This document shows, piece after piece, positions 1-3,680 of a DNA stretch of 40,482 nt; the stretch's first letter is position 1, and every line of letters begins with the position of its first letter. The position numbers and the translations under genes are program-made. The notes under the pieces were generated by a model that saw only the letters and a list, made by a program, of their open reading frames with translations, was not told the origin of the DNA and did not search any database. The stretch comes from Terriglobales bacterium (GTDB lineage Bacteria > Acidobacteriota > Terriglobia > Terriglobales > Acidobacteriaceae), in the NCBI GenBank assembly GCA_035937135.1, contig DASYVL010000070.1, forward strand, positions 1 to 40,482. The letters are read 5' to 3'.

Positions 1-672
1 CAGCTCGTCGCTGCGCATGAATTCGAGCTGCTGGCCGGCGAGCGGTCCGAACAGGGCCTTGCCCGAGACCTGCTGCCACCAGGTGCCGGTCTCCGCGTCG
101 CGCATGAGGAAGTTCTGGTTGTTGATGCCGGCCAGGTGAAAGCTGAGCGTCCTTCCCCCGACCGTCCGTTTCCACACCAGACCGGTGTGGCACAGCGTTC
201 AATAAGTGGCGACCAGCGGCACGCCTCCCAGCGTGTCGTTGACCAGGTGGTGGTAGGCCATGGCGCGGATGGGATAGGCGCGGGCCTGGGCGCCGCTGCG
301 CACCGCCAGCACCATCTCGTCGGAATCGAGCTTGACCTGCGCCGCGCTCTCGAACTGCGGGGTGGTGATGGGCCGGAAGAAGACGCGCTCGAAGTAATTG
401 AAGCGCGCCAGCGCGGCGGAGGCGACCACCAGCAGCACTCCCACGGTGACCAGCGCCTTCCGCGGCCAGCGCGAGCCACGCAAGAGCCCGAACGCCAGGA
501 TCAGGGCGGCGAGGCCGGTCACGACGGTTACCAGCGGCGCCCAGGTGCGCAGCGTGAGCGCCAGCGTCAGGGCCTCCGGCGACTGGCCGCGGAATGGCCG
601 GATGATCCACGCCGGGATGAGCACCACGGCGAGACTTGCCACGACCAGCAGCGCGAAGAGGGCGCGTTTCAT
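1..672 (-). CDS. DUF3179 membrane protein, probable selenoprotein (3' end beyond window)
   Basis: The start ATG at 672 gives three N-terminal membrane segments (about residues 4-25, 45-68 and 75-95), then the DUF3179 domain. The frame meets TGA at 199-201 (codon 158) and continues open for 66 codons to the window edge with clear DUF3179 sequence: after VPLVATY comes the stop codon, then TLCHTGLVW, a GINNQNFLMRD stretch, WWQQVSG and GPLAG. The family normally reads Y-C-x-x-C here, so the UGA replaces the first Cys of a CxxC pair, giving U-x-x-C. A hairpin with a GGUCU loop follows directly. I read the UGA as selenocysteine. The family's biochemical role is unknown to me; a redox or metal-binding role of the U/C pair is inference. 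It lies downstream of uvrC and a secreted protein on the same strand. The alternative is a nonsense mutation or sequencing error. Confidence 0.85.
172..201 (-). promoter_or_regulatory. Candidate bacterial SECIS element directly after the in-frame UGA
   Basis: On the minus-strand message, the UGA (201-199) is followed by 8 bases and then a perfect 7-bp stem, CCACACC (190-184) with GGTGTGG (178-172), closing a GGTCT loop (183-179). SelB binds bacterial SECIS hairpins whose apical loop carries GGU about 16-37 bases after the UGA. The E. coli fdhF loop is AGGUCU, nearly identical. The loop here starts 15 bases after the UGA, at the short end of the range. The stem is stable and all of it is coding, as expected for bSECIS. 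Confidence 0.75.
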
Positions 673-835: not shown

Positions 836-1714
836 CTAAGGAACCAGCCGTCGGTAGCGGGCGTAGTCGTGGATGGCGACGCCGAGGAAGCTCGGGTGCC
901 GTTGGAATGCCGCCTCAACGGAAGCGGCGATTGCTTCCAGGTCTGACTCCGCAGGCCCGCTGGCAGAGTTCGCGGGCAGGTGGGAGGGATCGGCGCTGAT
1001 GCCGATCCAGAGCTTTTTCCCGGCAGCGTCCGCGGACTCCATCTTTGCCCGGTTGGCGTCCACGACCTTCTGAGCGGTGTCCTTGTATGTCATCACCACG
1101 ATCTGGTCGGCCCGGTCGAGGACCGCTTCGCTCATGGACCGGGGACCGGCTGTAATCCGGTTGAACGAGACCGGCACGTCCACTACCAGCGGGAGCGCCA
1201 GCGGGCGCGCCTGATCGCGGATCCAATCAACGAACGCGAGGTAGCGCGCGGCCAGGTCTTCGTGTCGTACGGCCTTCCACTCCGGCAGCGACTGGGGCTC
1301 GACATCCAGGTGGATGGCGTCGAAGCGCTCGGTCGGGCGGCTTTCTCCGTCATAGTGCCGCACCGCCTCCAGGAAAGCGACAGCGCCGGAGCGGCGGTCG
1401 GGGAAGAGCCAGTCCGGCTCGCCGTTCAGGGCCTGCACAGTGATTCCCTGGGCGTGAGCGCGGCGGATGAGGCGGCGGTAGAGCTCGGGCTCGTGTTGCA
1501 GCCGTTGGGTTGCCGCCGAGAAGAAAATCGTGCTGGTTCGTTTCTTGGCGGTGAAGGCAAGCAGGGCCTCCAACTCGCCGGGATCCTCGAACAAGGCAGG
1601 CTTCCAGACCCAGAGCGCGCGCGCGGGCCGGAGGGCCGACCTGGAGGAGGCGATTTGCGCGCACACGGACGGCGCCAGGGTGATGGCGATCATCAGAAGC
1701 ACGAACCGGCGCAT
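836..1714 (-). CDS. Secreted protein, possible TIM-barrel glycosidase-like fold
   Basis: This 292-residue protein starts with a signal peptide (about residues 1-20, ending SVCAQ). The body has features seen in (beta/alpha)8 barrel hydrolases: ALWVWKP near 33-39, a strand ending in acidic residues at 134-140 (IHLDVEP), and VVMTYKD further on. These resemble strand ends of putative polysaccharide-acting barrels, but I cannot assign a family. The start ATG has a GGGGAG ribosome site about 10 bases upstream. It lies 16 bases after uvrC and is probably co-transcribed. The export signal is well supported; the enzymatic role is inference. Confidence 0.75.
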   Translation of the reverse strand: MRRFVLLMIAITLAPSVCAQIASSRSALRPARALWVWKPALFEDPGELEALLAFTAKKRTSTIFFSAATQRLQHEPELYRRLIRRAHAQGITVQALNGEPDWLFPDRRSGAVAFLEAVRHYDGESRPTERFDAIHLDVEPQSLPEWKAVRHEDLAARYLAFVDWIRDQARPLALPLVVDVPVSFNRITAGPRSMSEAVLDRADQIVVMTYKDTAQKVVDANRAKMESADAAGKKLWIGISADPSHLPANSASGPAESDLEAIAASVEAAFQRHPSFLGVAIHDYARYRRLVP

Positions 1715-1730: not shown

Positions 1731-3680
1731 TTACCTCCGGAAGTGGCCGAGGATGGCTTCGGCCTGCGGCCGGGTGACGACGGCGGCGAGGGCGGCGGCG
1801 CCGGCGGCCTTGACCGCTTGAACGCTGCCGAAGTGCTCGAGCAGGCGGCGGCGAGTGGTTTCGCCGATGCCGGGGATCTCCAGCAGCTCGGAGGCGCGGT
1901 CGCGCATCTGGCGGCGCTTGCGGTGGAAGGTGACGGCGAAGCGGTGGCTCTCGTCGCGGATGCGCTGGATCAGGTGCAGCACCGGCGAGTGGCGGTCGAG
2001 CGCCAGCGGCTCGTCCTCCTGGCCGTGGACGTAGATGATCTCCTCGCGCTTGGCGATCGCCGCCAGCGGCTGGTGGACGATCTGCAACGACTCGAGCGCC
2101 TGGGCGGCGGCGTGAAGCTGTCCCAGGCCGCCATCAACAAGGATGAGCGAGGGCATCTTCTGCTTGTCGTTTTTCTGTTCTGCTTGCAGGCGCTTGTAGC
2201 GCCGGGCGACCACTTCGCGCATGGCCGCGAAGTCGTCCACGCCTTCCACGCTCTTGATGAGGAACTTGCGGTAGTCGGACTTCTTCATCTTACCGTCTTC
2301 CCAGACCACCATGGAGGCCACCGTTTCCGCCCCTTGGATGTGGGAGATGTCGAAGCACTCGATGCGGTGGGGCAGCTCGGGCAGGGTGAGCGCGTCCTGC
2401 AGCGCCTGCTGGATGGCGCGCGTCGCGGGCTGGAGGACGCGGAAGCGCTGGTCGTACGACTGCTTGGCGTTGCGCGCGGCCAGGTCCAGCAGCGAGCGCT
2501 TCTCGCCGCGCTGCGGGACGTGGATCTCAACCCGGCCGTCGCGGCTCTCCGCCAGCAGCTCCTCCAACGCGGCGCGGTCGTCGAAATCCACCGGCAGGTA
2601 GATGTTGCGCGGGACGTAGGGCTGGCCGATGTAGACCTGCTTCAGCAGGGCGGAGAAGAAGACGGCGGGGTCGAAGCTCTGCGAACTCTGCGTCGGTTCT
2701 CGGCGAGCTCTGCGGTCAGGGTCTTTAGCCGCAGAGGGCGCAAAGGAAGGATTCACAGAGGGCGCAGAGGATTCCGCAGAGAGCGCAGAGGAATCCGCGG
2801 AAGGCGCGGAGAAAACCTCGGGCAGGTCTTCCCAGAAGAACTCACGGCGGTCGAGGATGCGGCCGCCGCGCATGTGAAACAAGTTGACCGCCAGCCGCTG
2901 CTCCTCGAAGTGGTAGCCGAAGAGGTCGGCGTCGTCGCCGGCGACGGCGGCCATGCGCTGCTTCTCGCTCAACTGGGTGAGGGTGGAGATGAGGTCGCGG
3001 TACTTGGCGGCGCGCTCGTACTCCTCGGCGGCGGAGGCCTGCTCCATGCGCGCCTTGAGGGAATGCGCCAGGTCCGTCGGCCGTCCTTCCAGGAAGAGCT
3101 TCAGGTCGCGCACCGCCTCCTGGTAGATCTCGTCGGTGGTCAGGCCCTGGACGCACGGTCCCAGGCAGCGCCGGATGTGGTACTGCAAACACGGCCGGGG
3201 ATGGAAGTGCGTGAGGTCCACGGTGCAGGAGGGCACCAGGAAATGGCGGTGGATGAGGTCAGCGACGCGGTGGGCGAGGTTGGCGGGGAAGTAAGGGCCG
3301 TAGTAGGCGCTGCCGTCCTGCTTGAGACGCCGGGTGACGTACACCCGCGGGAAGCGCTCGCCCAGGGTGAGCTTGATGTAGGGATAGGTCTTGTCGTCGC
3401 GCAGCAGGATGTTGAAGCGCGGCTGCTTCTGCTTGATGAGGTTGTTCTCGAGGGCCAGGGCCTCCTTCTCGTTGTCCACGACGATGTAATCGAGGTCGAC
3501 GGCCTCGCGCAGGAGCGAGCCGGTTTTTGCGTCCTCCGCCGCGCCCTCGGCGAAGTAAGAGCGCACTCGCGCCCGCAGGCTGTTGGCCTTGCCCACGTAC
3601 AGCACCTCGCCCTCGGCGTTCTTGTAGAGATATACGCCGGGGCTGGCGGGCAGGGTCCGGATCTTCTGGTGGAGGTCCAT
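1731..3680 (-). CDS. uvrC: UvrABC excinuclease subunit C
   Basis: UvrC makes both incisions around a DNA lesion in nucleotide excision repair, recruited by UvrB. Domains in order: GIY-YIG nuclease (about 11-90, with GVYLYK and YVGKANSLRARV), a Cys-rich patch (C164, C172, C176), the UVR UvrB-contact helix pair (about 205-235), the RNase H-like C-terminal nuclease with FDISH and LILVDGG, and a terminal helix-hairpin-helix (LLEIPGIGETTRRRLLEHFG). At 649 residues it is longer than usual (about 610). The excess is a Ser/Ala/Pro-rich insert at residues 291-339, encoded by a degenerate DNA repeat. Reading frame and domains are otherwise intact. It is the first gene of a minus-strand run. Confidence 0.97.
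   Translation of the reverse strand: MDLHQKIRTLPASPGVYLYKNAEGEVLYVGKANSLRARVRSYFAEGAAEDAKTGSLLREAVDLDYIVVDNEKEALALENNLIKQKQPRFNILLRDDKTYPYIKLTLGERFPRVYVTRRLKQDGSAYYGPYFPANLAHRVADLIHRHFLVPSCTVDLTHFHPRPCLQYHIRRCLGPCVQGLTTDEIYQEAVRDLKLFLEGRPTDLAHSLKARMEQASAAEEYERAAKYRDLISTLTQLSEKQRMAAVAGDDADLFGYHFEEQRLAVNLFHMRGGRILDRREFFWEDLPEVFSAPSADSSALSAESSAPSVNPSFAPSAAKDPDRRARREPTQSSQSFDPAVFFSALLKQVYIGQPYVPRNIYLPVDFDDRAALEELLAESRDGRVEIHVPQRGEKRSLLDLAARNAKQSYDQRFRVLQPATRAIQQALQDALTLPELPHRIECFDISHIQGAETVASMVVWEDGKMKKSDYRKFLIKSVEGVDDFAAMREVVARRYKRLQAEQKNDKQKMPSLILVDGGLGQLHAAAQALESLQIVHQPLAAIAKREEIIYVHGQEDEPLALDRHSPVLHLIQRIRDESHRFAVTFHRKRRQMRDRASELLEIPGIGETTRRRLLEHFGSVQAVKAAGAAALAAVVTRPQAEAILGHFRR
2664..2810. 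repeat. Degenerate 21-24-bp tandem repeat inside uvrC
   Basis: Four imperfect copies of a unit like CGCAGAGGGCGCAGAGGATT occupy about 2730-2815, flanked by related sequence. The reading frame stays open and yields a low-complexity Ser/Ala/Pro segment between conserved UvrC regions. The unit resembles intergenic repeats such as that at 720-835. Confidence 0.6.

Follow-up and report, generated by a model that had tools for sequence, protein, structure and literature searches.

A well-supported selenoprotein gene of the DUF3179 family in a Terriglobales bacterium, with a predicted membrane anchor and a bSECIS hairpin conserved across acidobacterial relatives

The SECIS element of fdhF in E. coli, which is SelB-dependent in that organism, presents a GGUCU apical loop on a short stem shortly past the UGA codon, and offers the closest described counterpart to the RNA structure reported here. 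On the protein side, members of DUF3179 (PF11376) with a U-x-x-C/T motif stand on lists of predicted prokaryotic selenoproteins, in the passages of PMC9312934 and PMC13188914 that deal with the family, and a report of 2006 described selenoproteins in acidobacteria (PMC1794560). DUF3179 is otherwise rarely mentioned in the literature we searched. The suspicion, voiced when the DNA was first read, that the family might already be regarded as a source of selenoproteins is borne out by these passages; going by them, the selenoprotein status of DUF3179 is not new, and the gene described below is an added member of a listed family. It shares with the listed proteins both the domain and the Sec-for-Cys U-x-x-C motif, whereas the acidobacterial branch to which it belongs is set apart by membrane helices at the N-terminus and by a GGUCU bSECIS that hardly varies. 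A tandem duplication, the confinement of U-x-x-C to the first repeat and a cluster-less Rieske-like fold go unmentioned in the DUF3179 passages of the same two papers.

The window, that is, the whole 40,482-nucleotide stretch analysed, is contig C70 of a 192-contig, 2.2-Mb Terriglobales genome, and window position 1 is C70 position 1. The gene lies at its very edge, on the minus strand at positions 1 to 672, starts with ATG at 672-670 and leaves through the contig start, so that 224 codons of the 5' part are present and the 3' end is lost. The sequence-only reading had given it as 172-672; the frame, the UGA and the hairpin are as it described them, but the gene is longer than that interval and runs off the contig. 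Residues 102-221 match PF11376 across the UGA (E 1.5e-35; 123.5 bits against a curated cut-off of 27), which places the coding sequence on both sides of the single UGA in DUF3179, as had been proposed. The in-frame UGA, a probable selenocysteine codon, is codon 158 (199-201, minus strand) and opens the motif U-T-L-C, which is closed by a TGC cysteine codon at 190-192 (minus strand) in the nearly invariant column C166 of our alignment A3; the peptide immediately after the UGA is T-L-C-H-T-G-L-V-W, and U-T-L-C occupies the Cys column of the family. A gene at 836-1714 (minus strand), without a Pfam family match, separates it from uvrC at 1731-3680 (minus strand). Among the flanking genes scanned we saw no conserved DUF3179 neighbourhood, and thus no functional partner can be named.

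Just downstream of the UGA the RNA folds as CCACACC-GGUCU-GGUGUGG (172-190, minus strand), with its first base 8 bases after the UGA, a perfect 7-bp stem (190-184 paired with 178-172) and a loop at 183-179, in agreement with the hairpin picked out in the sequence-only reading; as in other bSECIS elements, it lies just 3' of the codon and has G in its apical loop. The loop, at first called nearly that of E. coli fdhF, is in fact identical to it, the fdhF segment TTGCA-GGTCT-GCACC having been confirmed in E. coli genomes, while a 7-bp stem, a start 8 bases downstream of the UGA and an unrelated host protein are particular to this locus. The hairpin occurs once in the window against zero copies expected, and the tight hairpin segment has a z of -2.7 to -3.2. 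Among random synonymous versions of TLCHTGLVW drawn with local codon usage, however, seven pairs arise in 20%, and seven pairs plus GGUCU in 1.2%. The single sequence is therefore only moderately beyond chance, and it is conservation across species that makes the case.

To follow this conservation we scanned a single genome for each species, which gave 61 loci, and added 40 stretches from genomes of the same class, yielding 74 U-x-x-C-H-T-G sequences for comparison with the window. TGA stands at the codon 158 site in nearly all of about 60 genome loci from many acidobacterial lineages, those nearest to the window gene included, and other relatives carry TGC or TGT there, so the UGA falls exactly where the family has the first Cys of its motif, as the sequence-only reading had anticipated and as its suggested alignment of homologues bears out. 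The UGA and the GGUCU loop are present in all 75 U-x-x-C-H-T-G sequences, window included, and all seven stem pairs in 74 of them; four sequences show a compensatory swap of the loop-closing pair from C-G to G-C, made by two silent changes (ACC-GGT-CTG to ACG-GGT-CTC). In relatives with Cys (TGC) whose peptide is identical or almost so, by contrast, GGUCU survives in only 1 of 15, and codons vary freely between CAT and CAC and among GGG, GGA, GGC and GGT. Constancy of the hairpin with UGA and its drift with a Cys codon point to selection acting on the RNA where the codon is UGA. Amino acid identity is also higher after the UGA (64-83%) than before it (35-53%), which indicates that the part 3' of the UGA is translated.

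Several individual sequences stand out. One locus (L071:4001-4618) is the sole UxxC sequence with two broken stem pairs (ACG-GGT-CTG-GTC). Nannocystis pusilla, a member of the Myxococcota, has a UGA-form gene (L099:3926-5038) that shares the hairpin and sits amid acidobacterial sequences in the tree, possibly as a result of gene transfer; the reading frame of this gene seems disturbed farther 3'. Two relatives (L167 and L168) have Ser at both motif positions (S-P-M-S and S-L-L-S) and apparently lack a redox pair.

The genome encodes selA (E 1.6e-168), selB (E 1.2e-113) and selD (E 2.4e-111). The last carries its own in-frame UGA, followed by a folded stem-loop, in a U-x-x-K motif like that given for selD in a published selenoprotein listing. 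Of the four sel genes proposed as a genome-level check, selC alone is incomplete. Its remnant, on the 5.7-kb contig C145 and adjoining the gene that accompanies selC in relatives, retains GGAAGCGCATGGGGTCCGGTGACTCTCCCGGTCTTCAAAACCG, and its first 44 bases are 100% identical to those of the nearest relative (G401), whose tRNA-SeC is intact. At C145:360, which is 360 bases before the contig end, the sequence changes abruptly within the anticodon stem, and the rest of the assembly yielded no 3' half. The 360 bases past this junction, which open with the inverted repeat ATTTGAT...ATCAAAT, are unrelated to those of relatives; they gave no PHROG match (E 0.4) and no viral contig match to an exact 23-base pattern. 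The junction may be due to an integrated element, to a mixture of strains or to an artefact of the contig. The best Rfam tRNA-Sec match in the assembly (C11:18032, 49.4 bits, above the cut-off) was rejected as tRNA-Ser(TGA) by ARAGORN, and a tRNA search pattern running from anticodon to T-arm was too strict for these tRNAs. Neither in the stretches read here nor in relatives does selC lie beside selA, selB or selD. Intact tRNA-Sec (65-75 bits) was present in 11 of 11 UGA-bearing relatives tested and missing from G376, the sole Cys-form relative tested.

We suggest that the product of the gene is very probably a DUF3179 protein anchored in the membrane, and that SelB and the hairpin allow its UGA codon 158 to be read as selenocysteine, most likely to form a thiol-type redox centre. 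The label of selenoprotein is well supported by the sequence comparisons, given the conserved UGA and hairpin, the presence of selA, selB and selD, and tRNA-Sec in UGA-bearing relatives. SelB carrying Sec-tRNA would bind this hairpin, beginning 8 bases past the UGA; the ribosome would then insert Sec at codon 158 rather than stopping. In the product, about three membrane helices at the N-terminus would be followed by two beta-domains in tandem, and U-x-x-C in the first of these domains would most likely cycle between a selenol/thiol pair and a selenenyl-sulphide. Judging from the motif, the most likely role of the pair would be electron exchange with thiols or some other acceptor at the cell envelope, where the protein is presumably located.

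The state of selC leaves some room for a different history, in which an element interrupted selC, this strain thereby lost Sec decoding not long ago, and a former selenoprotein gene now ends at its UGA. The sharp junction in the anticodon stem and the missing 3' half are what such a loss would produce, but selA, selB and selD have open frames and strong matches, the DUF3179 gene retains its frame and hairpin, and the junction lies near the end of a short contig, a common place for faults of assembly or strain mixing; we consider this history improbable. That the UGA is instead read as an amino acid other than Sec, through genome-wide recoding or a suppressor, would accord with the lack of an intact tRNA-Sec in the assembly, yet it is scarcely credible beside a selD UGA that is a classical Sec site, the presence of selA and selB, a loop equal to that of fdhF, TGA as the terminal stop in 22 of 83 UGA relatives and tRNA-SeC in all 11 UGA relatives tested. 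A pseudogene made by nonsense mutation or sequencing error at a Cys codon would take one base change (TGC to TGA), and by itself the stem is not unusual with this peptide, but the same TGA at about 60 independent loci and a hairpin conserved only with TGA already refute it, just as the first reading of the DNA had judged a random nonsense mutation unlikely.

For the architecture of the protein we turned to a model of a full-length relative (L058, 400 aa; mean confidence 95.7), which has three long N-terminal helices (residues 6-29, 38-70 and 75-94) followed by two beta-domains that are repeats of each other (profile comparison E 3.9e-29). By this model and alignment A3, the N-terminal membrane anchor of the window gene, about three hydrophobic helices, would span an estimated 403-672 (minus strand), and the first repeat, bearing U-x-x-C, corresponds to 10-369 (minus strand; genome match C70:10-369). 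U/C-x-x-C occurs only in the first repeat, and the invariant alignment columns include its Sec/Cys together with Asp151, Asp197 and Trp204 (L058 numbering).

In the whole model each repeat matches Rieske-fold proteins. Repeat 1 modelled alone (confidence 95.3) resembles Rieske [2Fe-2S] ferredoxin folds (3gce, 2qpz, 3c0d) over about 90-98 aligned residues, with VIA Z 8.0-8.8 for the best 22 rows, and 50 of 50 among the matches listed in its fold search are Rieske-fold proteins. These matches are consistent, with Z reaching 9.3, but the E values given by Foldseek are 0.01-0.04, with repeat 1 at E 0.04, probability 1.00 and TM about 0.4-0.6, and a sequence search of solved structures returned nothing meaningful. 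The cluster ligands C-x-H ... C-x-x-H appear in none of 127 DUF3179 sequences, and the predicted resemblance of fold does not make DUF3179 a Rieske protein. The idea that UxxC replaces the box-II ligands was dropped, as the aligned ranges, rather than a residue-level alignment, suggest that Sec sits at an earlier strand turn and not in the cluster motif.

A tree of 122 proteins requires at least four changes between Sec and Cys forms, and since its root is arbitrary their direction is not fixed. Sec appears in three separate groups: U-T-L-C, which includes the window gene, U-S/G-Y-C and U-P-L-A, the latter two with their own hairpins of 5-6 pairs and G-first loops. U-P-L-A belongs to the branch sister to that of the window gene, where the second Cys is lost; three such genes (L031, L033 and L040) keep Sec, have Ala in place of that Cys and carry a GGUGU-loop hairpin. 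We would give about even odds to a wider view in which DUF3179 is a tandem Rieske-type duplication that lost its Fe-S cluster and gained a thiol/selenol site in repeat 1, with Sec in the three tree groups, one of them (U-P-L-A) without a resolving Cys.

By these observations, a DUF3179 branch found widely among soil Acidobacteriota probably uses Sec, and gene callers that halt at UGA will miss or truncate the protein. The same peptide, with Sec in some relatives and Cys in others, serves as a natural control of unusual clarity and shows that the RNA hairpin is under selection. For a family of unknown function, the predicted Rieske-like duplication may serve as a structural lead.
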